64,000 nucleotides of DNA from contig NZ_JABTEZ010000001.1 in the NCBI RefSeq assembly GCF_015711605.1, positions 710,001-774,000 of the forward strand, in the 5' to 3' direction. Below the pieces are notes generated by a model. It had not been told where the DNA came from, did no database searches, and saw nothing but the letters and a program-made list of their open reading frames with translations. This document shows, piece after piece, positions 1 through 24,388 of this stretch (its first letter is position 1; each line of letters begins with the position of its first letter). This DNA comes from Planomonospora sp. ID67723 (GTDB lineage: Bacteria; Actinomycetota; Actinomycetes; Streptosporangiales; Streptosporangiaceae). The position numbers and the translations under genes were made by a program.

Positions 1-170
1 CCGACCCACTGCCTGACCAGGTAACCGCTCCGGTCGCCGACGGTCGCCTCCTCCCCCTCCCCCTCGTCGCGGTACTCCCGCACGCGCTCGTCGATCCCCT
101 GGACGGCCCCGCCTTCGTAGACGGAGATCTGGACGCAGTAGAACCCGCCCGCGGATCCGGAAGGGCTCAG
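1..170 (-). CDS. Partial hypothetical protein, 3' end beyond the window
   Basis: The minus strand is open in one frame to the left edge, and almost every codon ends in G or C, the normal coding signature here. The visible translation includes GGFYCVQISVYEGG followed by an acidic run (REYRDEGEGEE). No ATG or GTG is seen in this frame near the expected 5' end (only a CTG at 170), so the start is uncertain and the gene may be broken at its 5' end. No family is recognised. Confidence 0.35.
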   Translation of the reverse strand, partial: MSPSGSAGGFYCVQISVYEGGAVQGIDERVREYRDEGEGEEATVGDRSGYLVRQWV

Positions 171-277
171 GGGCCGGGATCGCGTCCCGGGACGGGCGCA
201 CCGCGCGGACGGGACTCCGCCCGCACAACGGCGGAGATCACGCGCGGCCTGTGCGGAGGAGATGCATACTCGGCGTC

Positions 278-1108
278 ATGGTGCGCCCCTTCCAGCAGGT
301 CGACGTCTTCACCACCACCCCCTACCGGGGCAATCCCCTGGCCGTCGTGCTCGACGGCCGGGGCCTGACGACCGAGGAGATGCAGAGGTTCGCGAACTGG
401 ACGAACCTGTCGGAGACCACCTTCGTGCTGCCGCCCGGCGAGCCGGGTGCGGACTACCGGGTACGGATCTTCACACCCGACTCGGAACTGTCGTTCGCGG
501 GCCACCCGACGCTGGGCACCTGCCATGCCTGGCTGGCGGCGGGCGGCACGCCGCACGACCCCGAGGTGATCGTGCAGGAGTGCGGAGCCGGACTGGTGCC
601 GATCCGACGCGGCGGTGAGGGACTGGCCTTCGCCGCACCGCCGCTGCTGCGTTCGGGGCCGGTCGAGGAGTCGCTGGTGGAGCGCGTCGCGCAGATGCTG
701 GGCATCTCGCGCGGTGAGATCGCAGATGCCCGGTGGGTCGACAACGGGCCCGGGTGGGTGGGCGTGCTGCTGGAGAGCGCCGAAGCGGTCCTCGCTCTGA
801 CGCCGGGCCTCGTCAGCTGCGACGTGGGCGTGGTGGGACCCCATCCCCCGGGGTCGCCCGAGGCCTTCGAGGTGCGGGCGTTCTTTCCCCATAACGGTTG
901 CACGGTCGAGGATCCGGTGACGGGGAGCCTGAACGCCTCGCTCGCGCAGTGGCTCATCGGCACGGGGCGGGCCGAAGCGCCGTACGTGGCCGCTCAGGGG
1001 ACCGCGCTGGGGCGGGCCGGGCGGGTGCACGTCTCATGTGACCGGGACGGCACGGTCTGGGTCGGCGGCGGCACGGTCACCTGCATCGGCGGCGAGGTCG
1101 ATCTGTGA
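278..1108 (+). CDS. PhzF family isomerase/epimerase-like protein
   Basis: This 276-residue protein begins with the hallmark PhzF N-terminus (FQQVDVFTTTPYRGNPLAVV). It has the conserved Glu in LSETTFVLPP, the GHPTLGTCHAWL motif, and the second-lobe motif NGCTVEDPVTGSLNASLAQWL. PhzF proteins have a diaminopimelate-epimerase-like double-barrel fold and isomerise or hydrolyse small metabolites; the catalytic acid is the Glu of the first lobe. The substrate cannot be read from sequence. An in-frame GTG lies at 251, but the family start matches ATG 278, which has a GGAGGAG stretch upstream at a rather long distance. It sits next to the tRNA-Thr integration site and is probably ancestral chromosome. 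Confidence 0.9.
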   Translation: MVRPFQQVDVFTTTPYRGNPLAVVLDGRGLTTEEMQRFANWTNLSETTFVLPPGEPGADYRVRIFTPDSELSFAGHPTLGTCHAWLAAGGTPHDPEVIVQECGAGLVPIRRGGEGLAFAAPPLLRSGPVEESLVERVAQMLGISRGEIADARWVDNGPGWVGVLLESAEAVLALTPGLVSCDVGVVGPHPPGSPEAFEVRAFFPHNGCTVEDPVTGSLNASLAQWLIGTGRAEAPYVAAQGTALGRAGRVHVSCDRDGTVWVGGGTVTCIGGEVDL

Positions 1109-1162
1109 GGAAGACTCCGGGAAGCCCGGTGCGGCTGACACCGCCGGCGGGAGCGCCGACGA

Positions 1163-1187
1163 GAAGGCCCCACCGGTGGGGGTCTTC
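1163..1187. terminator. Hairpin between phzF-like gene and tRNA-Thr remnant
   Basis: GAAGGCCCCACC pairs with GGTGGGGGTCTTC to make a long GC-rich stem. It lies in the same relative place (just beyond a tRNA-Thr 3' end) as the perfect hairpins at 6199 and 22545, so it probably ended the original tRNA-Thr transcript or the phzF-like transcript. Confidence 0.6.
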
Positions 1188-1195
1188 CGACCCGG

Positions 1196-1240
1196 AGCCG
1201 CCCCGGGGAATCGAACCCCGGACCCCATTCATCACGAGCG
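1196..1240 (-). repeat. Diverged 3' half of a tRNA-Thr gene (old att remnant)
   Basis: Read on the minus strand this matches nucleotides from the anticodon loop (CGT) to the acceptor end of the intact tRNA-Thr at 22587-22660, with a few substitutions and one inserted base in the anticodon-stem region. The T-loop (TTCGATT) and a fully paired T-stem remain. It is interpreted as the outermost att scar of a tRNA-targeting element. Confidence 0.7.
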
Positions 1241-1249
1241 GGGACACGA

Positions 1250-1551
1250 TCGTCCAGGACCGTCCACGGCCGTCTTCCGGTCCTGGTCGAGTGGGGTCTA
1301 CAGGGTTCCTCAGGCCACGGTCGTCCAGAGCTCTTCTTAGCAAGATCACTTGATTGGGTGCTCGTGTGGGAGAAGGTCACGCACCTTGGTGATGGACCGC
1401 TTACTGCTCGCGCCGAACCTGGCGGAGTTACGCCGTCCCCGGGCGAGGCTCAGCTCATCGTTGGGACCACCACGGACCTCGTCGGTGTCATGCTCGTCCT
1501 CCCAGAAGCACACCGGTGAACCGCGCCGGGTCTGGTGGAAGGCGGGGAACA
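1250..1551. other. Gene-poor stretch left of the IS982 remnant
   Basis: No convincing gene is seen. A short minus-strand frame (ending LLPHEHPIK) is open but resembles no family I recognise. It joins the truncated 3' end of the IS982 transposase and may be another insertion scar. Confidence 0.4.
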
Positions 1552-2088
1552 TCAGCGGAGCACATCACTTTCGCGCTCGTCGAGCTTGGGGTTCGCCAGA
1601 GCCCACAGGATCGGCATTCCGGTCGGGGTGCATACCAGGAGCAGGCGAAGGCCCCAGAAGAACCGGCTGTGGCTGGCGCAGTATCGTACCCGCCGGCCCA
1701 GCTGGCCATGTCCGAGCGTTTCACCGTCGGGCGCGAGCGACCGCATTCCACCGGGGTGGAGTCGACGATCCAGCGGCTGTCGAACCAGAAGCCGGTGCCG
1801 ATGGCCAGCAGTCGTACGGCCTTCTTGACCAGCGGTAACGCAGCCCTCAGCCGCTTGTTCCAGCCCGGTTGCCTTGGCACGTACGGGAACATCCCGCCCA
1901 GGCGGGAGTCCACAAACCGCAGCCACCGCGACTCGGAGGTGAAACCTAGCATGGCCCGGGCAACGGCAAGCGTGACCAGCTCGGCATCCGTCAACCGTGG
2001 TGGACGGCCCCAGCCATCGATCCCCTCCGATCTCGTCGTCGATCTTCACGTAAAGCGCTGTCAGCGGGGCGTCCAGGCTGTTCGCCAC
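1552..2088 (-). pseudogene. IS982-family transposase remnant, frameshifted and 3'-truncated
   Basis: Three minus-strand pieces line up as one protein: an N-terminal segment (MANSLDAPLTALYVKIDDEIGG), a middle segment in another frame (TDAELVTLAVARAMLGF, GMFPYVPRQPG, WIVDSTPVECGRS, TVKRSDMA) and a return to the first frame (YCASHSRFFWGLRLLLVC). The DSTPVECGRS and FFWGLRLHL-type motifs are typical of IS982 DDE transposases. At least two frameshifts are needed, and the C-terminal third after KLDERES is missing, so it is inactive. Confidence 0.85.
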
Positions 2089-2211
2089 ATAACGATCTTG
2101 GATACCCTGGGCGTGTTCCCGGACACACCGTCAGCATTCGCATCACCGCGACGAGAACGCGGCCCTCGAGTCGAGCCGACTGCCTCCACCTACCCGTGGC
2201 AGGGTGGACGG

Positions 2212-2817
2212 ATGACGACGAACCGCGAGTGCTCATCCGATCTCGAACCGTGGTTGGACACCGCCTCGGCCCACGGAGATCTCATTGCGGCGAAGGCGCT
2301 CATCTACGACCCCTGCGGGTTCACGTGCTCGCAGCCGGTGCCCGAAGCCGAGGGTGCCGCCTACGCCGCCCACGAGTTCACCCTTGACGGCCTATCCATC
2401 CGGTTCCGCGCAGCCAAGACGACCCCCACCAAGGTCGGCCAGTTCGTCACCGTCTGGAAGAGGTCCCCGGCCGGCCCCATCCAGCCCTTCGACGCCACGG
2501 ACCCCGTCGACCTCTTCGTCATCAGTATCCGCGACCATCACCACTTCGGTCAGTTCGTCTTTCCCGTGGACGCGCTCCGCGAACACGGCGTCGTATCAGC
2601 AAACGGTTCCGGTGGGAAACGCGCCTTCCGTGTCTACCCGCCCTGGGTGATCACCACGAACCGCCAGGCCGGCAGTGCGCAGGCGTGGCAGGTGGACTTC
2701 TTCTTGAACCTGCACCAGGACAGGCCTTTCGACCTGGCCCGCGCCCAAGGGCTCTACCACCCGCAGGACGGCGCTGGCACAACCACAGGGCCGTCCAGCC
2801 GGTCACTCGATCACTGA
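2212..2817 (+). CDS. MepB family protein
   Basis: The 201-residue product has the MepB signatures in order: AAKTTPTKVGQFVTVWKR, GPIQPFDATDPVDLFVI, FGQFVFPVDALREHGVVS, GGKRAFRVYPPWV and QAWQVDFFL. MepB is a small domain of unknown biochemical role, named after the mepRAB multidrug operon of Staphylococcus; here no efflux gene is adjacent. ATG 2212 is chosen because homology begins there, although the frame is open far upstream into the transposase remnant. The flanking transposase debris suggests it arrived on mobile DNA. Confidence 0.85.
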   Translation: MTTNRECSSDLEPWLDTASAHGDLIAAKALIYDPCGFTCSQPVPEAEGAAYAAHEFTLDGLSIRFRAAKTTPTKVGQFVTVWKRSPAGPIQPFDATDPVDLFVISIRDHHHFGQFVFPVDALREHGVVSANGSGGKRAFRVYPPWVITTNRQAGSAQAWQVDFFLNLHQDRPFDLARAQGLYHPQDGAGTTTGPSSRSLDH

Positions 2818-2845
2818 TCGCCTACGATCATTCGGAATGACTCGT

Positions 2846-3242
2846 CTAGTGCTCCCCGGAGACGGTGCCGTGTGCAATCCTCTCGGCTGTTCGCTGAGAT
2901 CGGAGAGACACCGAGAGCCGCATCTCCTGGCTCTCGGCGTCGAAGATCACCCCATCACCGATGCCGGGCCCATGCGGGAGACCAGGACCGGCCGGCAGCC
3001 GTCGACACCAGCGGTGCCCGTGATGCCCAAGCTCTCCGCGCAGTGTGGCGATGCGCTGGCGTTCCAGCAGCGACAGGTAGCGATCGAAGCGTGCCGACTC
3101 GGCCAGGCGGGTCGGTGGAAGCCCGCCGTTCTCCGCTCGCCATCGGCATCCGGTCTTGCGGCCGATACCGACCTGTTTGCACGCCTTCACCGTTCCTACC
3201 CCGGAAAGGATCAGCCGCCAGTACTCCGACTCGAGCTCGAGT
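2846..3242 (-). pseudogene. IS30-family transposase N-terminal fragment
   Basis: The minus strand encodes SEYWRLILSGVGTVKACKQ followed by VGIGRKTGCRWRAENGGLPP and RYLSLLERQRIATLRG, the N-terminal helix-turn-helix part of actinobacterial IS30 transposases. After LRG the frame departs from the expected LG.REIA..LGR continuation, and the catalytic DDE half is absent. No start codon is needed upstream because the piece is a fragment. Confidence 0.75.
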
Positions 3243-3341
3243 CACCGCTTGGGTTCGCGAACAGCCATCAACACGCCCATCATGATCAGGTGTGTTGCGG
3301 CAAACACCAGAGCCCGCGCGTCGTCTGGAAGTCAGTTTTCA

Positions 3342-4234
3342 CGGCGCTGCTGTACAGCACTCCTCCATAGGAGGCGGCATGGTCTCTTGGTCAGCGCCCG
3401 CTGTGCAGGATCTCCATCGCTTGGAGCACGTCCGTGACAACGTGGTCCGCCCTGTGCTCCTGATCCGGCCACGTTCCCCGGTCGACCCAGACCGTACGCA
3501 GGCCGGCGGCTCGTCCCCCGCCGATGTCGGCGACCAGGTGGTCACCGATCATCCATCCTCCATCGGCAAGGCTCATCCCGCACCGCTTGGCGGCGATCTC
3601 GAACAGACCGGCATCGGGCTTGCGGATGCCTTCGAGCCCGGAGAGCGCGTAGGCGTCGACGGCCTCGGCCAGGCCCGTCCGCTGAATCTTCCCGAGCTGG
3701 TTGTCCGCCGTCCCGTTGGTGACGATGGCCACCTTCCATCCGGCCGCGCGAAGCCTCTCCAGCCCTTCCCTCACCTCGGATCGGCAGCGGACAAGAGACG
3801 GCATACGCTTGCGGTAGCGGCTCCACAGCTCCTCAACCGACTCGGAGAGGGCGAAGTGCTCGCGAACCTTGCCGAAGAAGACCTCACGATGCGGGTAACC
3901 CGCCTGGTCGAGAGCGAGCAGCCAGTCAACCGCACCCGGCTCAAGACCGTGCTCCTCGACGAACCCAGCAGTCCACACCCGGAACGCCTCGCCCAGGTTC
4001 ACGAGCGTGTTGTCCAGGTCGAAGAGCGCCAACCGTTGCACGCCAACACCCTACGTGCACACCTTCCGATGGATCATCCGCGCTATGGAGCGAGGACTAC
4101 CCGCACTTCGGCAAGGGCGGCGGCTGAGACCGGGGCCGACATCGCAGGGTGATACCCGGCCTGCGGTCCGACCTCTCGTCAATTCTCAATGTCTCCGGCC
4201 GTCTCACACTCTCGTGTGTCCTCGTTGTGCCCTG
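3342..4234. repeat. Copy 1 of a duplicated HAD-hydrolase cassette
   Basis: About 890 bp from a CGGCGCTGCTGTACAGCAC sequence, through the whole HAD gene, to a CACACTCTCGTGTG element upstream of it is closely matched at 6371-7266. Coding, flanking and promoter-side sequences are all duplicated, with many synonymous and some nonsynonymous differences, so the duplication is not recent. Confidence 0.8.
3391..4041 (-). CDS. HAD family hydrolase, copy 1
   Basis: This 216-residue HAD-IA hydrolase has motif I LFDLDNTLVN (nucleophile and acid Asp) near residue 8, motif II VTNGT near 109, motif III Lys in GIRKPDAG near 138 and motif IV MIGDHLVADIGGG near 164. The helical cap lies between motifs I and II. 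Such enzymes are small-molecule phosphatases or dehalogenases; the substrate is unknown. It differs from the copy at 6424-7074 at scattered sites but keeps every catalytic residue, so both copies appear functional. Confidence 0.92.
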   Translation of the reverse strand: MQRLALFDLDNTLVNLGEAFRVWTAGFVEEHGLEPGAVDWLLALDQAGYPHREVFFGKVREHFALSESVEELWSRYRKRMPSLVRCRSEVREGLERLRAAGWKVAIVTNGTADNQLGKIQRTGLAEAVDAYALSGLEGIRKPDAGLFEIAAKRCGMSLADGGWMIGDHLVADIGGGRAAGLRTVWVDRGTWPDQEHRADHVVTDVLQAMEILHSGR

Positions 4235-4266
4235 CCCGCGGAGATCCAGGTCATCTCCCATCTCGC

Positions 4267-5070
4267 TCACGCGTAGTCGGCGCGCGGCTGGACGATGCCG
4301 GGCCCGCCCGTGTGCGGCGTCGGCACATAGCCCTCCGCGGGAGCCGGAAGAGCATCGATGCAGGCGGGTGAGCAGGCGTTGACCAGGAGAGGCAGCACAT
4401 CGGTGCCGACCCGCAAGGAGATCCAGACCTGGTGGAGCCCGGCCGCTGCGATCGACCGGTCGCAGACGCTGCACGCCCCGATCGCGTCGGTACCCCACAC
4501 CCTGGGGTCGAGATCGCTGGTGTCGAGGTCGCGGGTCGATTCCCTGCCCGGCTGGAGGGGAGGGAACGGCGGACGGATCTTGACGTTGCCGTACAGCGAG
4601 CGGGTGCTGACCGTGCTACCCCTCAGCTGCGGGCACCGGGTCAGCTCGTAGGGGAACCAGTGCAGGCGGTGCGAGGTGTAGGGGGTGAACTGCCGCAGGC
4701 CGGTCATGGAGCCGATCTCCGGCGGGATGCGCACCAGGTTGCTGCCGTAGAGCACCAGGTGTTTGACCTCGGTGAGTTTGGCGATGGTCGGAGGCAGGGT
4801 GATGATCTGGCGCCGTTCGTCCGGGCTGAGCTCGGCCAGGGGCCGGAACTCCTCCCGGCCGTCGGCCGCCGCTTCCTCCACGAGATCGAGCAGGCGGTGC
4901 CACGCAGCAGACGCCGTGTCCTGACGTTCGGCGTGGAAGCGCACCACGCGCGGCCGTCGGCGGACCCTGTGCTGGTCGAAGCACCGGCAGATCTCCTTGC
5001 CGGCCACCCGTCCGCCTCCACCGACGGCACCGGCCGGTCGGCTCGCGGGCGGGGTGGCGTCGTCCTGCAT
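4267..5070 (-). CDS. Leucine-rich repeat domain protein
   Basis: The 267-residue product has short LRRs in its centre (ITLPPTIAKLTEVKHLVLYG, NLVRIPPEIGSMTGLRQF, RLHWFPYELTRCPQLRG), preceded by a charged helical region. The C-terminal part contains cysteine pairs (CSVCD, CSPAC) that could bind a metal. LRRs mediate protein-protein contact; no catalytic domain is visible. It lies inside the decayed element with other accessory genes, so a role in conflict or immunity is possible but unproven. Start ATG 5070 (MQDDATPP). Confidence 0.75.
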   Translation of the reverse strand: MQDDATPPASRPAGAVGGGGRVAGKEICRCFDQHRVRRRPRVVRFHAERQDTASAAWHRLLDLVEEAAADGREEFRPLAELSPDERRQIITLPPTIAKLTEVKHLVLYGSNLVRIPPEIGSMTGLRQFTPYTSHRLHWFPYELTRCPQLRGSTVSTRSLYGNVKIRPPFPPLQPGRESTRDLDTSDLDPRVWGTDAIGACSVCDRSIAAAGLHQVWISLRVGTDVLPLLVNACSPACIDALPAPAEGYVPTPHTGGPGIVQPRADYA

Positions 5071-5225
5071 AGACGCACGCTAGCGTGATCCGTCCTGACT
5101 CGATCAACCGCCGCGGCGAGCCGCACGAGATGTCCCCCGGCTTGTGCGGCGTCATCCGGGCAGACCGGCACGTCCCGATCCTGCAGGAGGAAGCGTTGTC
5201 GTGCCCGGTGGGTACCCTCCCGAGC

Positions 5226-5681
5226 GTGGCAGTACCCGAGCTCATCCCCATCGCATACGAACCCGACTATCACACCGACACGATCGGCCACTGGGACGGC
5301 GGACAGTTCCTCGGCTCCGTCGTGACCGCCTTCCCCGAGGGCTACACCCACACCGACGACTGGCCGGCGCACGAACGCTGGTACGCCGTTCTGCACACCT
5401 TCGACGCCTCCGGCCACCATCTCGGCTCCCGCATCGAGCGCACCGGAACCGAAGCCGACCATCGGGCGTCCGCCGACACCGCCCAGGACCTGGTGAAGCG
5501 GTGGCTCGATGCGCTCCCCGGCCACCGCTTCGGCGACATCGCCATCCGACCCTTCCGGTACGAGTTCGACGGCGTGCTGTTCGGCCTCGTCATCGAGACC
5601 TTCGAAGGCGACCAGCACGCCGAGCTCTATCCGGAGGGCATCGGCTTCTACGAGCCCTGGGACGGGTCCTACGACACCTGA
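5226..5681 (+). CDS. Hypothetical acidic protein
   Basis: This product of about 151 residues begins MAVPELIPIAYEPDYHTDTI if the GTG at 5226 is used; an upstream in-frame start at 5085 would add a stretch without coding-like composition. Segments such as IGHWDGGQFLGSVVTAFP and HERWYAVLHTFDASGHH suggest a small alpha/beta cytosolic domain. There are no signal peptide or membrane segments. It lies next to an Imm21 gene and could be a second immunity-type protein, but no family is assigned. Confidence 0.65.
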   Translation: MAVPELIPIAYEPDYHTDTIGHWDGGQFLGSVVTAFPEGYTHTDDWPAHERWYAVLHTFDASGHHLGSRIERTGTEADHRASADTAQDLVKRWLDALPGHRFGDIAIRPFRYEFDGVLFGLVIETFEGDQHAELYPEGIGFYEPWDGSYDT

Positions 5682-5729
5682 CCGCTTGGTCCGTATGGCG
5701 GGGTACCGGCGTGCAGCGTGCCCAGGGGT

Positions 5730-6197
5730 TCAGGGTGTCGGCTGGAGGTGGACGAGGATCATCCGGTTGTCCTCGTCTTGCCTGTAGGTGGCGCGGACCC
5801 TGTACCGGCCGGGTTCGAGATCGATGGTGAGCCGGTCGGCAGCCTCCAGCTCGGCGCCGGGAATCGTGGAGTCGAAGGGCACGACCGCCTCCTGTACCTG
5901 CCAGATCAGGTCTTCTTCACCGTCCCAGTCCGGTTGCCCGGTGAGGGCTCGCTTGGCCGCCGCGACCGACTCGGTTTCGGAGTATGCGGCGGCCCAGCGC
6001 ACGAAGAGGCGTTCAGTCGTCAGGTAGGTCGTCATGGCCGGTTCGTCGCCGAGGACGAGGGCCTGTTGCGTACCGACGGCGATGAGGCCGATGTAGCCCT
6101 CAACGGCACAGGCGCGACCGTAGTCACCCCAGGTCTCTACGGGACCGTCGTTGTCGTCCACGCCCGCCCAACTGCGCGGTCCAGACTCAGGAATCGG
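5730..6197 (-). pseudogene. Imm21 immunity protein, 5' end removed by att junction
   Basis: The protein contains the Imm21 core: GDYGRACAVEGYIGLI, ALVLGDEPAMTTYL, RLFVRWAAAYSE. Upstream of the GTG at 6161 the frame still reads like Imm21 (IPESGPRSWAG) up to 6191, and then runs into the 88-bp att repeat that starts at 6198. The usual N-terminal strand is therefore replaced by att sequence. Translation from GTG 6161 would give a 143-residue shortened protein. Imm21 proteins neutralise polymorphic toxins; no toxin partner is in the window. Confidence 0.75.
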
Positions 6198-6285
6198 AAA
6201 AGGCCCTCCGGGATCATCCCGGAGGGCCTTTCACCTGCGGAGCCGCCTTGGGGAATCGAACCCCAGACCCCTTCATTACGAGTGA
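6198..6285. repeat. attL-like copy, 88-bp perfect direct repeat
   Basis: The sequence is identical to 22544-22631. It contains a perfect 15-bp-stem hairpin and then the tRNA-Thr 3' half from the anticodon stem to the acceptor end (6241-6285). The identity ends at 6286, where the tRNA 5' half is replaced by element DNA. This is the standard layout for a tyrosine-integrase element that targets a tRNA 3' end. Confidence 0.92.
6199..6231. terminator. Rho-independent-type hairpin in att copy
   Basis: AAAGGCCCTCCGGGA pairs perfectly with TCCCGGAGGGCCTTT across a TCA loop; the flanking A and T runs make it work in both directions. Confidence 0.85.
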
Positions 6286-6366
6286 GAGGCGGTGCCCAGG
6301 TCGGCGGGCTCGCGCCCTGGCCGGACGGTAGGTACGGGCCGGTGGGGTGTGATCGTGTAAGGCGGT

Positions 6367-6390
6367 GTTGCTGTACGGCGCTGCTGTACA
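6367..6390. repeat. Left copy of 24-bp TGCTGTA double repeat
   Basis: Two TGCTGTA heptamers spaced by a short stretch. The right copy at 22513-22536 matches it at all but three positions. The last part, including CTGCTGTACAGCAC, also occurs at 3347-3360 before HAD copy 1. The place beside both att cores suggests arm-type integrase or Xis sites. Confidence 0.6.
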
Positions 6391-7266
6391 GCACTTCCCG
6401 TGAGCTGCGGGGTGATCTCCCGGTCAGCGCTCGCTGTGCAGGATCTCCATCGCCTGGATTACGTCGGTGACGACGTGGTCGGCCTCGTGCTCCTGGACCG
6501 GCCGCGTTCCCCGGTCGATCCAGACGGTGCGGAGGCCGGCGGCTCGTCCCCCGCCGATGTCCTTGACGGGATGATCACCGACCATCCACCCGCCATCGGC
6601 CAGACTCATGCCGCACCGCCGAGCGGCGATCTCGAACAGGCCGACATCGGGCTTGCGGATGCCTTCGGCTCCGGAGAGCGCATAAGCGTCGACGGCCGCG
6701 GCCAGGCCTGTCCTCTGGATCTTGCCGAGCTGGTTGTCCACCGTTCCGTTGGTGACGATGGCCACCTTCCACCCGGACGCATGCAGCCGCGCCAGCCCGT
6801 CCATCACCTCAGGCCGGCAGCGCACCAGATACGGCATGCGCCTGCGGTAACGGCCCCACAGCTCCTCAACGGTGCCGGTGAGAGCGAAACGCTCACGGAC
6901 CTTGCCGAAGAAGACCTCACGATGCGGATAGCCGGCCTGGTCGAGAGCGATCAGCCAGTCGATCGCCTCGTGCCCGAGGCCATGCTCGTCAATGAACTCC
7001 GCAGCCCACATCTGGAATGCCTCATCCAGATTGATGAGCGTGTTGTCCAGATCGAAGAGCGCGAGCCGCTGCACGCCAATACCCTACGTGCACGTCTTCC
7101 GATGGATCACCCGCGCTACAAACTGAGGACTACCAGCACTTCAGCAAGGGCGGCGGCTGAGACCTGGGCCGACGTCGTGGGATGGCCCCTGACCTGCGGT
7201 TCAGCATCTCATCAGTTCCCGGTGTTTCCCACCGTCTCACACTCTCGTGTGCCCTCGTTGCGCCCT
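6371..7266. repeat. Copy 2 of the duplicated HAD-hydrolase cassette
   Basis: This is the partner of 3342-4234. The match runs from the CGGCGCTGCTGTACAGCAC sequence next to the att region to the CACACTCTCGTGTG element upstream of the HAD gene. Confidence 0.8.
6424..7074 (-). CDS. HAD family hydrolase, copy 2
   Basis: The 216-residue product is a close paralogue of the protein at 3391-4041 with the same length and start (MQRLALFDLDNTLINL). Motifs are VTNGTVDNQ (II), GIRKPDVG (III) and MVGDHPVKDIGGG (IV). It is the first gene inside the att site, transcribed outward toward it. A promoter probably lies in 7075-7344, which both this gene and the divergent gene at 7345 could share. Function is presumed phosphatase-like; the repeated presence in two tandem elements suggests a useful cargo or a backbone role. 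Confidence 0.92.
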   Translation of the reverse strand: MQRLALFDLDNTLINLDEAFQMWAAEFIDEHGLGHEAIDWLIALDQAGYPHREVFFGKVRERFALTGTVEELWGRYRRRMPYLVRCRPEVMDGLARLHASGWKVAIVTNGTVDNQLGKIQRTGLAAAVDAYALSGAEGIRKPDVGLFEIAARRCGMSLADGGWMVGDHPVKDIGGGRAAGLRTVWIDRGTRPVQEHEADHVVTDVIQAMEILHSER

Positions 7267-13093: not shown

Positions 13094-13501
13094 GTGGACG
13101 CACAGCAACCAGAGCACGAGGTTCCCGACCCTGAGGTACGCGAACGGCCCGTGGCCCGTCGCTACAGCGCGGCCTACAAGGCCCGGATCCTGGCCGAGTA
13201 CGAGCAGCTCGACAAGGCCGGCAAGGGCGCGCTGATGCGCCGCGAGGGCCTGTACTCCTCGCTGATCTCCGGCTGGAGAACGGCCCGCGACCACGGCGCG
13301 GCCCAAGCGCTGGCCCGGCCGGTCGGACGCCCGAAGGCCGACCCGAGGGACAAGAAGATCGAGGCCCTGGAAGGGGAGATCGAACGGCTGCGCGCCGAAC
13401 TCGGCACGACCCGCCAGGTGATCGAGGTGCAGGGAAAACTCTTCGCACTGCTGGATCAGCTCGCCACCAGCAGCGAGACACCGGATCGGGGCGAGAAGTA
13501 G
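13094..13501 (+). CDS. IS3-family transposase OrfA
   Basis: The 135-residue OrfA has a helix-turn-helix ([34 protein letters not shown]) and a C-terminal coiled coil / leucine zipper ([20 protein letters not shown]), the usual OrfA layout. The start is GTG 13094. Its 3' end overlaps the upstream open part of orfB in the -1 frame. Confidence 0.9.
13432..13438 (+). promoter_or_regulatory. Putative -1 ribosomal frameshift heptamer GGGAAAA
   Basis: In the orfA frame this reads G-GGA-AAA, a canonical X-XXY-YYZ slippery site. Slipping back one base enters the frame of orfB, which has no ATG or GTG near its 5' end. IS3 elements normally make the OrfAB transposase this way. Confidence 0.75.
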
Positions 13502-14553
13502 AGGCGGCCCGCCTGATCGAGCAGGCCCAGTACGCGGCGGTCACCGAACTGGAGCCGGTCATCGGCCGCAAGCAGGCGCTGGCCGCGTACGGTGTCGCGC
13601 AGGCCACCTGGTACCGCCGCCACCGCAAGAGCCCGCTGCCCGAGCGGCCCGCCCGAGCGCGCCGACCGCACCCGGCCACCCTCAGCCCGGCCGAATGCGA
13701 GCACATCCGCGGCCTGCTCAACAGCGAGCGATTCTGGGACCGCTCGCCGACGTCGGTCTACTACATGCTGCTGGATGAAGGGCTCTACCTGGCCTCGGAG
13801 TCGACGTTCTACCGGATTCTGCGGCGCCATGGCGAGGTCGGCCGCGATCGCCGCCGCCAGGCCACGCCTGCGAACGCCTCGGTCCCGCACCTGTTCGCCG
13901 ATGCGCCCAACCGGGTGTGGGCCTGGGACATCACCAAGCTGCGCGGCCCGGACAAGGGCATCTGGTACCACCTGTACACGATCATCGACATCCACAGCCG
14001 CTACGTCGTGGGCTGGATGGTCGCCACCCGTGAGTCCGCGACCCTGGCCAGGCGCCTGATCACGGCCACCGCCCGCGCCCAGGGCATCGACGAGGGCACT
14101 TTGACGCTGCACGCCGACCGGGGCAGCTCGATGAGGTCCAAGACCGTCGCCGAGTTGCTCATCGACCTGGGCGTGGCCAAGTCCCACTCCCGTCCGCGCA
14201 CCAGCAACGACAACCCGTACATCGAGGCGAGTTTCAAGACCCTGAAGTACTGTCCAGAGTTCCCGGGCCGGTTCGGCTCCAAAGAGCATGCCCGCCAGTT
14301 CTGCGCCGGGTTCTACCGCTGGTACAACCATGATCACTACCATTCCGGGATCAAGTACCAGCATCCCGTCGATGTGCACTACGGCCGCGCCGCGGCCGTG
14401 CGCGACCAGCGTGCCGCGGTCCTGGCCGCCGCGCACGCGGCCCGTCCCGAGCGTTTCCCCCACGGCCCGCCCACTCCACCGGCCCTGCCCGGACCCGCGT
14501 GGATCAACAAACCCCGACCAGAGCCCGAAACAGATAACCGGGCACAGAATTAA
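13438..14553 (+). CDS. IS3-family transposase OrfB (DDE integrase core)
   Basis: OrfB is read as the C-terminal part of an OrfAB fusion. It has an HTH_21-like region ([29 protein letters not shown]) and then the rve domain with catalytic D in [10 protein letters not shown] in [11 protein letters not shown] and E in [15 protein letters not shown]. The C-terminus is complete (TAA). All three acids are present, so the transposase looks active. The annotated start is the frameshift point, since the frame lacks its own start codon. Confidence 0.88.
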
Positions 14554-14589: not shown

Positions 14590-14996
14590 GTGTCGGCGTC
14601 ACCACGGTCGGCCGATCGCTGGGCGGTGACCTCGCGCGGGACCCACAGCAGCACGCGCAGCCAGGAATCCGGCTCCCGGCCGATCAGCTTACGCAGGTCG
14701 GGGATGTTGCCCATATGCACGATGGGCACATGACCGGCGGCGTGATGGTCCTCGATGGCCTGCCGGTCGACGGCGTAGACGTTGCCGTACCGGTGGGTCT
14801 CGGCCAGCAGGCGACCCGCATCCCGGAGTGTGGCCAGGTGCTCGGCCGAGACGAACTCATAGCCGTCCGGCCGGCCGGTGCCGACCTTGAGCTTGGGCAG
14901 CCGGACGAACCGGGAATCGGCGTGGGCAAGGGCGGTGGTGAGGGTGTCCTTGCCGCTGGCGGGCGGGCCGTACAGGACGATTCCGCGCACGCTCAT
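14590..14996 (-). pseudogene. 5' part of P-loop nucleotide-kinase-like gene
   Basis: ATG 14996 (MSVRGIVLYGPPASGKDTLT) starts a guanylate/adenylate-kinase-like protein with Walker A GPPASGKDT and VLLWVPREVTAQRSADRGDA, a lid-like stretch. The native gene would be 197 codons; the IS insertion separates the last third. An alternative short product reading into the IS end (EPVK and stop) is possible. The gene overlaps the upstream ATPase gene by ATGA, so both belonged to one operon. Confidence 0.8.
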
Positions 14997-16030
14997 GTCA
15001 GGATCCGCTTGAGTGCTTCGCGGGTCTGGTCGGCCAGACTGATCGCTGCGCCGAGCCGGTTGTCGATCGTGACGTGGGCGGTGGGTGGGCTGACCTCGAC
15101 GGCCAGGCCGTCGACGTAGTGCTCCCAGTTCTCCAGCTTCCAGGAGTCACGGGCGGCGCCGCGGAACTCGATGTACTCGCGCATGGACTCGGCGTCGCAG
15201 CGGACCCAGATCGCGGCCACGTCGATGCCTTTGGCCGCGCACCGGTTCTCCAGGCGGGTGAACCACGCAGTGTCCTTCATCTCGGAGATGAACGGCGCGG
15301 ACAAGATGGTGGAGGTGCCCACATGGAGGTTGTCCCAGGCGGTCTCCATCAGGCACCGGTACTCCAGCGGCCGGACCTCTTTGAGGTACAGGTCGGTGTG
15401 GCGGTCGTTGGGGTCGCCGCCCAGGGAGACGAGCAGCCGTTCGACGATGCACCGGGTCAGGGAGTCTTTGTCCAGGAAGGCCCAGCCGGTGATGTCGGAC
15501 AGGAAGCGGGAGAACTCGGTCTTGCCCGATCCGGCGTACCCGCCGACCAGGACGAGGATGGGTTTGGGGCTGCCTCCGCCGTGGCGCCGGCACCAGGCGT
15601 CGACCACCCGCTTGCGGATGAGCGCTTGGGGGGAGCCGTCGGAGGGGACGCCGCCGATGGAGACCTTGGTGAACGCTTCCTTGATGACCTCGGCGGCGGC
15701 GTTGTCAGCGGCGGGATCGCTGGGCGCGGGCAAATCGGAAATCACAATTTCCGCTTTCTGTGATTCACCGGGCAAAGGAGGGCGAAAGCCGAGGTCGGGT
15801 TCGGTGGCCTGGTAAAGCAGGCAGTAAGCGCGCCGGTAGTGCGGTCCGGGGAACACCGTTCCCTGTTCGTGTCCCCACAGGGTTTGGAAGTTGGCCGCCG
15901 GGACGCTCAGGCCGTGCCGGCTGGCCGCCTGGCGGAGCCGTTCGCCTGCGGCCTCCAGGGTCAATCCGTGGGCTTCACGGTGTTCTCGCAGGCGGGAGGG
16001 GGTCCAGCCGGGTCGCTGGGTCGTCTTCAT
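14993..16030 (-). CDS. HTH / P-loop ATPase (zeta-toxin-like kinase fold)
   Basis: The 345-residue protein has an N-terminal XRE-like region (PSRLREHREAHGLTLEAAGE, FQTLWGHEQG) and a C-terminal P-loop kinase/AAA_33-type domain with Walker A GGYAGSGKTEFSR near residue 165, followed by LDKDSLTRCIVERLL and IWVRCDAESMREYIEFR. Such HTH-kinase fusions are frequent AICE regulators or nucleotide-modifying proteins. It is first in an operon with the IS-split kinase. A direct repeat GCATGTG in the upstream region (about 16081-16100) may be a binding site. Confidence 0.8.
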   Translation of the reverse strand: MKTTQRPGWTPSRLREHREAHGLTLEAAGERLRQAASRHGLSVPAANFQTLWGHEQGTVFPGPHYRRAYCLLYQATEPDLGFRPPLPGESQKAEIVISDLPAPSDPAADNAAAEVIKEAFTKVSIGGVPSDGSPQALIRKRVVDAWCRRHGGGSPKPILVLVGGYAGSGKTEFSRFLSDITGWAFLDKDSLTRCIVERLLVSLGGDPNDRHTDLYLKEVRPLEYRCLMETAWDNLHVGTSTILSAPFISEMKDTAWFTRLENRCAAKGIDVAAIWVRCDAESMREYIEFRGAARDSWKLENWEHYVDGLAVEVSPPTAHVTIDNRLGAAISLADQTREALKRILT

Positions 16031-16866: not shown

Positions 16867-17205
16867 ATGCGCACCATCCCCATCCCCGTCGACGTCACCA
16901 AGCTCAACATCACCTGCGTCAAGCCGCCCAAGCCGCGCGTGGTCAACAAGGACACCGGCGAGATCAAGCGCGACAAGGACGGCAACGTCATGTACGAGCT
17001 CACGCTGTTGATCGAGGACGAGTTCAACCGCATGGAGCTGGTCAAGGTCTCCACCTCACCCGAACCGCCGGTGATCGCCGGTGAGGAGGTCGTCCCGGTC
17101 GGCCTGGTCGGCTACGTCTGGGAGCAGAACGGCCGGTGGGGCATCTCCTACCGGGCGCGCTCCTTCGCTCCGGCCGCTGCGGTCAGGACGGGGGCCGAGC
17201 TGTGA
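16867..17205 (+). CDS. SCO3933-family regulatory protein
   Basis: The 112-residue protein (MRTIPIPVDVTKLNITCVKP, GNVMYELTLLIEDE, WEQNGRWGISYRARSFAPAA) matches the small conserved protein that precedes the translocase gene in actinomycete elements. It is probably a DNA-binding or plasmid-control protein; the molecular role is not settled. It starts the transfer-replication operon and overlaps the translocase gene (stop TGA within GTGATC). Confidence 0.85.
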   Translation: MRTIPIPVDVTKLNITCVKPPKPRVVNKDTGEIKRDKDGNVMYELTLLIEDEFNRMELVKVSTSPEPPVIAGEEVVPVGLVGYVWEQNGRWGISYRARSFAPAAAVRTGAEL

Positions 17206-18575
17206 TCGACCTCAGCCACCCCCTGGTCAAGGTCCTGGCCGTCGTGCTGGTGTTGATCGCCTGGCGGCGCTGGGCTCCCATCTCCTACTGGTACGTCCTG
17301 GTCTTCCCGCGCAAAGCACTGTGGCTGCGCTGGACCTGGCGGCATGTCGCTTCGGGCTGCGGGCTGACCAAGAAGCGCCACCGCTGGTGGTTCACCACCG
17401 TTCCCGGCCTGATCGCCTCGACCGGCGTCGTGCGGGTCAAGCGGCGCTTTCAGCGGGTGGAGGTCGACACCAAGCCGTGGATGGGCCTGCCCCGGCCCAC
17501 CCGCAGCGGCTTCCGCATCACCTTCCACCTGCTGGACGGCCAGGTGCCCGACGACTACGCCAAGGTGTGCGAGCGCCTCGCGCACGCCTGGCGCATCGAA
17601 GCGGTCCGCGTCGTGGGCTCCCGGCCCGGCCGCGTCACCCTCCAAGGGATCACCTACGACCCTTTAACGCACGTCGCGCCCGCCGCCTCTCCATCTGAGC
17701 CGTCCGGCGGCTGGCGCACCGAGGACCTGCTGCGGCCGGTCGTCGGGGTGCTGGAGACCGGCGCGGCCTGGCGGATGGATTTCCGGCTCATCCCGCACTG
17801 GATGAACGCCGGCGCCACCCAGTCCGGCAAGTCCAACCTGATCAACGCGCTCCTGGTCGGGCTGGCGCCGCAGCCGGTCGCCCTGATCGGCTTCGACCTC
17901 AAGGGCGGCATGGAGCTGTCGGCCTACGCGCCGCGGCTCTCAGCGCTGGCCACCACCCGCGCCGAATGCCTCGACCTGCTCAGTGACCTGATCGCCGTGA
18001 TGGGGGCGCGCATGCTGGCCTGCCGCCGCTACAGGGTGCGCGACATCTGGCAACTGCCCGACGCCTGCCGTCCCATCCCGGTCGTGGTCCTGGTCGATGA
18101 GCTGGCCGAGCTGTTCCTGACCGCAGACAAGGCCGAGAAGGACCAGGTGACCCGGACGGCGACCGCGCTGCTGCGCATCGCCCAGCTCGGCCGCGCGCTC
18201 GGCATTCACCTGGTGCTGTCCGGTCAGCGGATCGGCTCCGATCTCGGCCCCGGCGTGACCGCGCTGCGTGCCCAGATCGGCGGGCGCGTCTGCCACCGGG
18301 TCAACGACCCGGAAACCGCGGTGATGACCCTCGGCGACCTTGACCCTGAGGCGCTGGTGGCCGCCCGTTCCATCGCGCCGGAGCTGCCCGGCGTGGCGGT
18401 GATCACCGGTTCGGACGGTCGCTGGTCGCGGGCGCGCTCGGGCTACGTCTCCACCACGGCCGCCGAACGGGCCGCCCAGACCTTCGCCGATCTCACCCCC
18501 TCGTGGGCTCAGGTGGCCGCCTCCGGTCTCGGTCACGAACTGCCCTACGACGCCAATCCCGAGATCGCCGCCTGA
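17202..18575 (+). CDS. FtsK/SpoIIIE-type DNA translocase (TraSA/TraB-like)
   Basis: The 457-residue protein has one or two N-terminal TM segments (VLAVVLVLIAWRRWAPISYW), then an FtsK ATPase domain with Walker A GATQSGKSNL (about 204-213) and Walker B PVVVLVDELAELF (about 292-304). It is the single conjugation protein of AICEs and moves double-stranded DNA between hyphae. GTG 17202 overlaps the previous stop (GTGA), so the two are coupled. All core motifs are intact. The length is in the normal range for the family. Confidence 0.93.
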   Translation: MIDLSHPLVKVLAVVLVLIAWRRWAPISYWYVLVFPRKALWLRWTWRHVASGCGLTKKRHRWWFTTVPGLIASTGVVRVKRRFQRVEVDTKPWMGLPRPTRSGFRITFHLLDGQVPDDYAKVCERLAHAWRIEAVRVVGSRPGRVTLQGITYDPLTHVAPAASPSEPSGGWRTEDLLRPVVGVLETGAAWRMDFRLIPHWMNAGATQSGKSNLINALLVGLAPQPVALIGFDLKGGMELSAYAPRLSALATTRAECLDLLSDLIAVMGARMLACRRYRVRDIWQLPDACRPIPVVVLVDELAELFLTADKAEKDQVTRTATALLRIAQLGRALGIHLVLSGQRIGSDLGPGVTALRAQIGGRVCHRVNDPETAVMTLGDLDPEALVAARSIAPELPGVAVITGSDGRWSRARSGYVSTTAAERAAQTFADLTPSWAQVAASGLGHELPYDANPEIAA

Positions 18576-19727: not shown

Positions 19728-21098
19728 ATGCCAAGCACCTACGCGGTAGCCGGGATGATCGCCCGGCTCCACGACCCCCAATACGCCCGCTGGGCCTCGC
19801 AGATCCGCCGGACGGGCGGCTGCCGACAGCCCATCCACCTGCGCGGCCACGTCCAGCACGTCGACCCCGCCACCGGAGGGCGGCTGCACACCTACACCAC
19901 CGCCACCGAACCGGACGGCATCCTGCGCCTGCCGTGCAAGACCCGGCGGGCCTCACGCTGCCCGACCTGCGCCGAGACCTACCGGGCCGACACCTACCAG
20001 CTCATCCGCGCGGGCCTGGTCGGCGGCAAGGGCGTCCCCGAATCGGTGAGCACTCACCCGTGCCTGTTCGTCACCTTGACCGCGCCCTCCTTCGGCATCG
20101 TCCACACCCGGCGGGAGAAGAACGGCGCAGTACTGCCGTGCCACGCCCGACGGGACGCAGCCACCTGCCCGCATGGGCGGGTCATGTCCTGCACCGCCCG
20201 GCACGGCGCCGACGAGGGATGCCTCGGCGAGCCGCTGTGCGGCGACTGCTACGACTACACGGGAAGCGTGCTGTTCAACGCCCTGTCCCCGGAGCTGTGG
20301 CGGCGCTTCACCCTGGCCCTGCGCCGGCGACTGGCCAAGACCGCCGGCCTGACCCTGCGGGAGCTACGCGAACAGGCCACGGTCTCCTTCGCCAAGGTCG
20401 CCGAGTACCAGCGGCGCGGCCTGGTGCACTTCCACTCCGTCATCCGCCTCGACGGCCCCGATGGGCCGAACTCCGCTCCCCCGGCCTGGGCCACCGCCGA
20501 TGCTCTGACGGACGCCGTACGGCATGCCTGCGCGGCCGTGGCGGTCACCTCCCCCGCGGCGGCCGGGGAACCCGCGCGGGTACTGCGCTGGGGCGCCCAA
20601 CTCGACGTCCGGCCCATCACCATGGGCGGAGAGCTGACCGATCAGGCCGTGGCCGGCTACATCGCCAAGTACGCCACCAAGGCCGCCGAATGCGTCGGCA
20701 CCCTCGACCGGCGCATCAGTCCCGTGGAAGACCTGTCCGCGCTACCGATCCGAGAGCACGCCCGGCGGCTCATCGCCGAGTGCCTGCGCCTGGGGGCGCT
20801 GGAAGAGCTGGCCGAACTCCGGCTGACCCAGTGGGCGCACATGCTCGGCTTCCGCGGCCACTTCTCCACCAAGTCCCGCCGCTACTCCACCACCCTCGGC
20901 AAGCTACGCGCGGCCCGTGCCGAGCACCGGCACGCAGAAGCCATCACCACCGGACGACTTCCCCTCTTCGAGGAGGACACCGTCCTCGTGATCGCTCGCT
21001 GGGAGTACGCCGGACAGGGCTACTCAGCCGGTGACGCGCTTCTGGTAAGAGCCCTTACCGGAAACCGCCTCTCCGGCCCGGGAGGCACTCATGAGTAG
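19728..21098 (+). CDS. RepSA-like rolling-circle replication initiator
   Basis: The 456-residue protein has N-terminal Cys motifs (CPTCAETY, CGDCYDY) that likely bind zinc, the HUH-type motif GLVHFHSVIRL (about 230-240) and the catalytic-tyrosine region GYIAKYATKAAEC (about 309-321). It nicks the element's double-strand origin so the excised circle can replicate, as in pSAM2. GGAAGGGAC precedes ATG 19728. Its end overlaps xis. The double-strand origin itself was not identified. Confidence 0.9.
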   Translation: MPSTYAVAGMIARLHDPQYARWASQIRRTGGCRQPIHLRGHVQHVDPATGGRLHTYTTATEPDGILRLPCKTRRASRCPTCAETYRADTYQLIRAGLVGGKGVPESVSTHPCLFVTLTAPSFGIVHTRREKNGAVLPCHARRDAATCPHGRVMSCTARHGADEGCLGEPLCGDCYDYTGSVLFNALSPELWRRFTLALRRRLAKTAGLTLRELREQATVSFAKVAEYQRRGLVHFHSVIRLDGPDGPNSAPPAWATADALTDAVRHACAAVAVTSPAAAGEPARVLRWGAQLDVRPITMGGELTDQAVAGYIAKYATKAAECVGTLDRRISPVEDLSALPIREHARRLIAECLRLGALEELAELRLTQWAHMLGFRGHFSTKSRRYSTTLGKLRAARAEHRHAEAITTGRLPLFEEDTVLVIARWEYAGQGYSAGDALLVRALTGNRLSGPGGTHE

Positions 21099-21276
21099 TC
21101 CCAAGTTGCTCACGGTCCCCCAGGCCATGGCCGCTCTCCAGGTCAGCCGGTGGACCCTCTACCAGCTCATCCGCTCCGGCGAACTCGACTCGGTCATGGT
21201 CAACGTCCGCTGCCGCCGCATCCCGGAATCCGCACTCAACGACTACGTGACCCGGCTCTGTGAGGAGGCTGCCTGA
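21091..21276 (+). CDS. xis: Excisionase / MerR-like HTH protein
   Basis: The 61-residue protein (LLTVPQAMAALQVSRWTLYQ, LIRSGELDSVMV, RRIPESALNDYVTRL) is a typical winged-helix excisionase. It overlaps rep by 8 bp and int by 1 bp (TGATG), so rep, xis and int are made as a coupled set. It is expected to direct Int towards excision by binding sites near att, possibly the TGCTGTA repeats. Confidence 0.9.
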   Translation: MSSPKLLTVPQAMAALQVSRWTLYQLIRSGELDSVMVNVRCRRIPESALNDYVTRLCEEAA

Positions 21277-22508
21277 TGGGTAAGCGCGCGAACGGCGAAG
21301 GCTCGGTCTTCCCCTATCGGGACGGCTGGGCGGGCTATGTCTGGGTCACCACGCCGGAGGGCAAGAAGACCCGTAAATGGGCCTACGGCAAGACCCGCGA
21401 GGAGACCCACGAGAAGTGGCTCAAGCTCCACGAGCTGGCGAGCAAAGGGCCGGTGCCGACCAAGAACCCCACGATTGCCACGTACCTGACGCGCTGGCTC
21501 GCCGAGGTTGTGGAGCCCAACCGGGAGCCGACGACCTACGCCGGTTACGAGCCGCTCGTCCGGCTCTACATGATTCCCGGCCTGGGCAAGAAGCGGCTCG
21601 ACAAGCTCACCGTGCGGGACGTTCAGACCTGGCTCAACACGCTGCCGACGCTCTGCACCTGCTGTGACCAGAAGAAGGACCACCGGCGGCCGGAGGGCAA
21701 GCGGAAGTGCTGTTCCAAGGGGGAGTGCTGCAAGGACTACCCATCCCGGAGCACGATCGCCAGCATCCGCCGTGTCCTGCGATCGGCCCTCGGCAATGCC
21801 ATCCGGGAGGAACTGATCTCCAAGAACGTGGCCGCGCTGACGGTCCTGCCCAACGCGAGCAAGACCAAGAAGACACGGAACCACGGCGTGTGGAACGTCG
21901 ATGAAGCACGGAAGTTCCTTGAGCATCTGCGTGAAGCAAAGGAGCCGCTCTATGCCGCGTACGTCCTGATCCTGATTCTCGGTCTGCGACGGGGCGAGGT
22001 GCTCGGCCTCACCTGGGACTCCGTTGATCTCGACGGCGAAGAGCTCTGGGTCTCCCATCAGCTCAACCGGGTGCGCGGTCAGCTCCTCCACCGGGACAGG
22101 ACCAAGACAGAGGACTCGACGGATTCCCTTCCGCTGCTCGGGCTCTGCATCTCGGCTCTCCGGGAGCGCCAGCGGATCCAGGAGGAGGCACGCGAGGACG
22201 CCGGAGAAAAGTGGAAGAACTCCGATCTCGTCTTCACCACGAAGAACGGGACTCCGGTCGAGCCGCGCAACTTCTACCGGTCCTTTGAGCGCTACTGCGA
22301 GAAGGCCGGTGTCCCCCGTATCCGTGTCCACGACACCCGGCACACCTGCGCCTCGCTCCTGGCGGCCCTCGACGTCCATCCCCGCGTCGCGATGCGCGTC
22401 CTGCGGCACTCACAGATCTCGGTGACCATGAACGTCTACACCCAGGTTCCTTCGCCGGAGACCCGCAAGGCACTCGACCGGCTGAACAAGAGCTTCGAAG
22501 ACGGCTGA
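21276..22508 (+). CDS. int: Tyrosine site-specific integrase
   Basis: The 410-residue protein has an N-terminal AP2-like arm-binding part (GEGSVFPYRDGWAGYVWV), a SAM-like core-binding part and a catalytic domain with R in GLRRGEVLGL (near 236), HDTRH (near 353-357), LRHSQIS (near 379) and the nucleophile Tyr in NVYTQV (near 387). A Cys-rich insertion (CTCCDQKK ... CCSKGECCKDYP) lies between core-binding and catalytic parts. Its 3' end is 35 bp from the right att copy, as expected for an integrase of a tRNA-Thr element. Confidence 0.95.
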   Translation: MGKRANGEGSVFPYRDGWAGYVWVTTPEGKKTRKWAYGKTREETHEKWLKLHELASKGPVPTKNPTIATYLTRWLAEVVEPNREPTTYAGYEPLVRLYMIPGLGKKRLDKLTVRDVQTWLNTLPTLCTCCDQKKDHRRPEGKRKCCSKGECCKDYPSRSTIASIRRVLRSALGNAIREELISKNVAALTVLPNASKTKKTRNHGVWNVDEARKFLEHLREAKEPLYAAYVLILILGLRRGEVLGLTWDSVDLDGEELWVSHQLNRVRGQLLHRDRTKTEDSTDSLPLLGLCISALRERQRIQEEAREDAGEKWKNSDLVFTTKNGTPVEPRNFYRSFERYCEKAGVPRIRVHDTRHTCASLLAALDVHPRVAMRVLRHSQISVTMNVYTQVPSPETRKALDRLNKSFEDG

Positions 22509-22512
22509 TGCC

Positions 22513-22536
22513 GTTGCTGTATTTCGCTGCTGTACA
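22513..22536. repeat. Right copy of 24-bp TGCTGTA double repeat
   Basis: Partner of 6367-6390, three mismatches. It lies between the int stop codon and the att core. Likely recombination arm site. Confidence 0.6.
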
Positions 22537-22543
22537 AGATCGA

Positions 22544-22631
22544 AAAAGGCCCTCCGGGATCATCCCGGAGGGCCTTTCACCTGCGGAGCCGCCTTGGGGA
22601 ATCGAACCCCAGACCCCTTCATTACGAGTGA
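22544..22631. repeat. attR-like copy, 88-bp perfect direct repeat
   Basis: Identical to 6198-6285. The tRNA-Thr 3' half is part of it, so the element restores a complete tRNA gene on its right side. Confidence 0.92.
22545..22577 (-). terminator. Terminator of tRNA-Thr
   Basis: A perfect 15-bp stem (AGGCCCTCCGGGA arm) with A/T flanks directly downstream of the tRNA 3' end on the minus strand; it may also end int transcription on the plus strand. Confidence 0.85.
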
Positions 22632-22660
22632 AGTGCTCTGGCCGACTGAGCTAAGGCGGC
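22587..22660 (-). tRNA. tRNA-Thr (anticodon CGU)
   Basis: A 74-nt cloverleaf reads GCCGCCT acceptor, D-arm GCTC...GAGC, anticodon stem CTTCA/TGAAG with loop CTCGTAA, T-arm TGGGG-TTCGATT-CCCCA, acceptor AGGCGGC and discriminator T. CCA is not encoded. Its 3' 45 nt lie in the att repeat; the 5' 29 nt are chromosomal. Confidence 0.96.
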
Positions 22661-22727
22661 GTGCCACGCATGGTTCGCATGACTGATGGCAGTCTACAGG
22701 GTCCCGGCCCTTGTTCGCGCCGCCGGA

Positions 22728-24203: not shown

Positions 24204-24388
24204 CCTACGCGCGGATGTTCATCGGCTCTGGCGGGGACACCTGTACGCCCGGAAGAAGGCATGTGTCCTCGGCCGGGGCCGGCCCGGACATCGCCTCGGC
24301 CTCGGAAGAAGGTTCTCCTGCGACTCCCCCACCCGGACATTACGATCTGCAAGTAGACGGTACATATGCCGCCCAGCGAGGAGGTCTC

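Follow-up and report, generated by a model that had tools for sequence, protein, structure and literature searches.

The genome of Planomonospora sp. ID67723 carries an Imm21 (PF15589) immunity gene that has lost its start codon next to an att repeat at a tRNA-Thr gene. We consider it probable that this gene is 5′-truncated, a pseudogene or becoming one, that a deletion-type join fused it to the DNA following the tRNA terminator, and that a pSAM2-like element integrated independently. The stretch analysed, referred to as the window, comprises 64,000 nucleotides.

The Imm21 coding remnant lies at 5730..6191 on the minus strand and is open to its stop codon, with no start codon at the 5′ end. 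Its identity, which had been predicted from the sequence, is borne out by the PF15589 profile, which matches the frame at E 3.9e-45 and 154.1 bits (curated cut-off 30.7) and is covered from position 7 to 157 of 159. The WxG and YxxxC motifs, described as absolutely conserved in Imm21 in PMC3482391, are both in the open frame, as WAG and YGRAC. The frame is free of stops and frameshifts over 166 codons, back to a stop within the att repeat; its first ATG, GTG or TTG is a GTG at 6159..6161, which the WxG precedes. The alignment of the Imm21 homologue of genome G216 begins at 6191 (query position 2 of window:5690-6192:-), confirming that the frame reaches this point, close to the repeat. No other Imm21 copy rises above noise in the same genome (second match E 4.28).

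We found 25 Imm21 relatives in named genomes and compared 23 of them, leaving out L081 and L082. An in-frame start-type codon is positioned 21 or 27 bases 5′ of the GGP codons in 22 of the 23; the exception, L071, has start-type codons 12 and 42 bases before GGP. A typical start region reads VLHTWVSTAGGPLIAVPKSELNSWAGVDDND, and its equivalent in the window, GGPFPIPESGPRSWAGVDDND, has no start. Where relatives have, for example, GGP-LIAV-PKS, the window has GGP-FPI-PES, and the 3′ arm of a terminator hairpin supplies the GGP codons and most of the F codon. The Pfam match extends to profile position 7 because this arm happens to read GGP in frame. Thus, while the profile match and both motifs in open frame are those of the Imm21 family, the window gene differs from the family in having neither its own start codon nor an N-terminal segment before GGP, its first residues being terminator-derived. 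Judged from these alignments, the start and about 16 codons of Imm21 have been lost or replaced. The N-terminal loss in the original prediction is upheld, and close relatives sharing the short N-terminus, which would have spoken against it, are absent among the 23 of 25 compared.

The hairpin belongs to a 93-base direct repeat. One copy, at 6193..6285, is the distal att copy of an element in tRNA-Thr and has one mismatch, at 6197; the tRNA-proximal copy is at 22539..22631, and the exact part spans 6198-6285 and 22544-22631. The repeat covers the 3′ part of the tRNA-Thr (CGT) gene, which is intact at 22585..22660 on the minus strand, plus the terminator-like hairpin after the tRNA, which in the distal copy occupies 6199..6231 (minus strand). 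Folding of the region 6180-6240 gives -35.7 kcal/mol (z -4.34); a strict terminator scan of 6100-7200 listed none. For Streptomyces ICEs, PMC9513070 reports a repeat of 93 nucleotides at tRNA-Thr.

The repeats delimit a 16.3-kb element encoding, all on the plus strand, a tyrosine integrase (21276..22508; PF00589, PF14659), a RepSA replication initiator of pSAM2 type (19728..21098; PF20199, E 5.1e-165) and an FtsK/SpoIIIE-type transfer protein (17136..18575; PF01580), together with two GntR regulators. With integrase, RepSA-type Rep and FtsK-type protein present, and direct repeats of which one copy lies in a tRNA 3′ end, the element is, on its gene content, a pSAM2-like AICE. It has the att-tra-rep-int-att order and tRNA 3′-end target set out for such elements in PMC3218068, which also reports that pSE211-type integrases enter tRNA-Thr, but differs from them by an IS3-like insertion at 13094-14553. 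This insertion holds a transposase pair with a weak HTH_Tnp_1 match and an rve match, and a segment 78% identical to it occurs at an Imm21 locus of another genome (L054 in G187). Also inside the element, at 14993-16030, is a gene whose product matches AAA_33 and, below threshold, a zeta-toxin model. A motif common to both element ends (6367-6390 and 22513-22536, 88%) looks to us like integrase arm sites.

The break between post-terminator DNA and Imm21 falls at 6188..6195, with CCTTTTCCG on the left, also present in the sister genome G001, and CCTGAGTCTG on the right, also present in G216. The CCTG at the break is assignable to either side, an overlap that is suggestive only. Imm21 homology ends 3-10 bases outside the exact repeat. 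The gene had been described as cut exactly at the att core; it does adjoin the repeat, but the break is outside the exact part and, seen from the tRNA, past the terminator hairpin. Between hairpin and break is an 11-base tail, CCTTTTCCGAT, that is one base off the sister site and one base off the element's own tail, and therefore does not decide which of the two is its owner. An 8-base run, GGAGGGCC, common to terminator and Imm21 and nearly in register, was considered as microhomology and rejected as evidence, since 3.6% of all breakpoints would do likewise; a shared run of this type reaches at least 8 bases in six of seven relatives and 3 in L066.

Comparison with G001 indicates what the element entered. 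Window positions 22531-24215, holding att, tRNA-Thr and a hydrolase gene, are 90% identical to G001, where the same tRNA-Thr is followed by the hairpin and then by CCTTTTCCGGTCCTG, and this element is absent from that tRNA. G001 contains one copy matching tRNA plus hairpin, and neither the arm motif nor an integrase was found after CCTTTTCCGGTCCTG. Since the other end of the element is an intact tRNA in a context that G001 has without the element, the target of the integrase was the tRNA and not Imm21. Imm21 is broken outside the element, which calls for another event, a deletion being the simplest. Hence the proposal that the junction dates the arrival of the second element does not hold; the break may be older or younger, a caution that the element bearing an att repeat is not necessarily the cause of a neighbouring break or a guide to its age.

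We propose that a deletion, or a similar illegitimate join, brought Imm21, from about codon 17 onwards, up to a point a few bases beyond the tRNA-Thr terminator. The gene would thereby have lost its promoter and ribosome site as well as the start codon and first strand. Separately, earlier or later, the pSAM2-like element would have integrated, presumably conservatively, into this tRNA at its 3′ end, duplicating the tRNA end and terminator, such that the Imm21 remnant now adjoins the distal att copy. Other comparisons bear on the history of the site. At E 1e-6, nothing in G001 matches window positions 1-1192; Imm21 has no match in that genome, and the post-tRNA DNA of G001 sits elsewhere in the window's genome, on contig C1 at 2.29 Mb (91% over 1748 bases) and at a second place on contig C5 (88% over 443 bases). 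Repeated rebuilding has therefore taken place left of the tRNA, and the site appears rearranged beyond what one deletion explains.

The original prediction called for an uncut Imm21 gene beside tRNA-Thr. We found no such case: none of 29 Imm21-matching loci has a tRNA within about 1.5 kb, and tRNA-Thr(cgt) is absent from L057 and from 12 loci for which wider stretches were taken. Among the wider loci, L047 has tRNA-Tyr, and L052 has tRNA-Ala as well as tRNA-Thr(tgt), the latter separated from Imm21 by about 3.9 kb. The 12 contain no att traces at E 1e-8. What they match in window positions 1-24500 is limited to Imm21 with part of its 3′ flank, 117 bases in L047 and the IS-like segment in L054. 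Full-length relatives occur in other surroundings, and the parental arrangement of the junction was not found among the Imm21 loci scanned. Nor did we find a paper in the open-licence PMC literature that describes Imm21 located at an att site.

Tentatively, and with somewhat less than an even chance, Imm21 may have come from an earlier element that formed part of a stack at this tRNA. Deletion of the integrase-side end of that element would then have run into Imm21, and a defective remnant would persist outside the newer element. This is compatible with the deletion we favour and merely names a larger one. A tRNA-Thr 3′ remnant at 1193-1238 could mark such an element, but it carries a different terminator tail; the HAD gene beside att at 6424 has a second copy at 3391-4041, but the left part of the window resembles a mosaic of separately distributed genes. 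Integrase loss in such elements is published (PMC9513070), but window positions 1-6192 contain no integrase trace (best E 2.2).

Family genomes provide a further point in favour of an older element. The tRNA plus hairpin is matched in 130 of 341 family genomes at E <= 1e-20. Besides the window's own, there are at least 22 partial copies among the matches listed. We read 19 of the 22, some of them on contigs other than that of the tRNA; a twentieth stretch, L173, was dropped as a full-length match to another tRNA. An arm-like tail, by our own pattern, follows in 13 of the 19 and is absent from 6, and a trace of the integrase of the window element lies within 2.2 kb in 5. All 19 include the hairpin; duplicated in this way with the tRNA end, it means that tRNA-Thr keeps its terminator whatever enters.

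The left part of the window holds other features of its own. The HAD-hydrolase module occurs twice, at 3341-4233 and at 6375-7266 (83% identical). The latter copy lies next to att, just within the element, and related DNA is present in many family genomes. The remnant at 1193-1238 resembles a tRNA-Thr 3′ half; it was considered as the distal terminus of a first element in the same tRNA, a reading that its different terminator disfavours. Its right flank (1228-1331) recurs on contig C1 of G001 beside a HAD gene, with about 2 kb more between the two in the window. The protein encoded at 4267-5070 has only sub-threshold leucine-rich-repeat matches, and its DNA is 86% identical to part of contig C11 of G001. 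Imm21 is listed in heterogeneous polyimmunity loci in PMC3482391, and the 4267-5070 gene with Imm21 nearby could be part of a polyimmunity remnant.

Convergent with Imm21 is an uncharacterised gene at 5226..5681 (plus strand), with no Pfam match (a longer frame was searched) and no NCBIfam match. In eight loci chosen for their match to it, protein identity is 74-83% in seven; the copy in G150 is partial, 70% over 89 residues. At this G150 locus (L196, 2387-2800), about 25 C-terminal residues of Imm21 remain, in convergent orientation to the partial copy and abutting it, and we found no tRNA in the 5-kb stretch. The truncation is an independent break of the same gene pair. DNA similarity continues 55-93 bases beyond the Imm21 stop in 4 of the 12 wider loci, including G216, partly into the end of the 5226-5681 gene, and no protein match to that gene was detected at E 0.01 in 37 Imm21 loci (several genomes represented twice). 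With the G150 pair broken away from a tRNA, and Imm21 loci lacking the partner protein, one-sided loss of the pair is therefore not special to the att site.

The leftover GTG had been suggested to allow a shortened protein. A restart there is possible in principle, but a working product is unlikely, and we regard it as improbable that initiation at GTG 6161 keeps the shortened gene active in immunity. The frame is open and the window branch has a ratio of nonsynonymous to synonymous change (omega) below 1, but the GTG aligns with an internal Val codon, that of WAGVDDND in relatives, and a start there would lose the WxG directly before it. A strong hairpin lies just upstream, and a consensus scan of 6100-7200 found no sigma-70-like promoter (0.2 expected by chance). 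AlphaFold2 predicts a confident fold for the full-length relative L058 (mean pLDDT 90.0, pTM 0.87), in which a strand (13-17) and a helix (18-23) precede the restart position and would be lost with it; the 143-residue restarted window protein, which also differs from L058 in sequence, is modelled with lower confidence (mean pLDDT 77.7, pTM 0.76). Pairwise omega over 143 codons is 0.14-0.36 between the window and 14 relatives, and 0.10-0.28 in the 36 pairs among nine full-length relatives. A branch codon model (one tree, 12 sequences, uncorrected for multiple testing) gives omega 0.39 for the window and 0.155 elsewhere, with 2dlnL 4.42 against a single omega and 4.0 against a window omega fixed at 1, such that the window value is below 1 at the edge of significance. 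This model suggests that Imm21 was constrained along most of its branch and has lately and partly been relaxed. In simulations of 36 neutral substitutions, stops averaged 0.98 and 37% of runs had none; the open frame is therefore weak evidence against a pseudogene.

Integration of the second element is very unlikely to have itself cut Imm21 at the att core, despite the mere 3-10 bases between break and exact repeat. On the opposite side, the element is flanked by the 5′ half of the tRNA, in surroundings that recur in G001 without the element at this tRNA, making the tRNA the target; the lost segment would have to be sought past the second att copy, in the place taken by the tRNA and hydrolase gene. 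There is a faint chance that translation from a non-canonical start in or just after the hairpin yields a near full-length Imm21 whose N-terminus, including GGP, is terminator-coded; if true, a mobile-element att site would have been recycled as coding sequence.

The structural model of the L058 Imm21 (L058:5012-5518) also resembles ComJ, the inhibitor of the NucA nuclease (4mqd; Z 7.1 over 116 residues, rmsd 3.8; next entry Z 4.2), a likeness that, at Z below 8, may be just a common arrangement. Foldseek alone gave the model no match at E <= 0.001, with ComJ absent from the best 50 matches listed, and the Imm21 alignment had no sequence match to solved structures at E 1. If real, the likeness would ally Imm21 with inhibitors of nucleases, in keeping with the HNH-fold partner given for it in PMC3482391.

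Accretion and cargo decay at AICE tRNA sites are already published (PMC9513070, in its account of such sites). The window shares with that account truncated genes and direct repeats at an insertion hotspot; it differs in that the broken gene is an immunity gene outside the younger element. We conclude that the Imm21 remnant is dead or dying cargo of an ordinary kind in an integration hotspot, most likely a recently dead gene, and that it offers a clear example of immunity cargo decaying at such a site.
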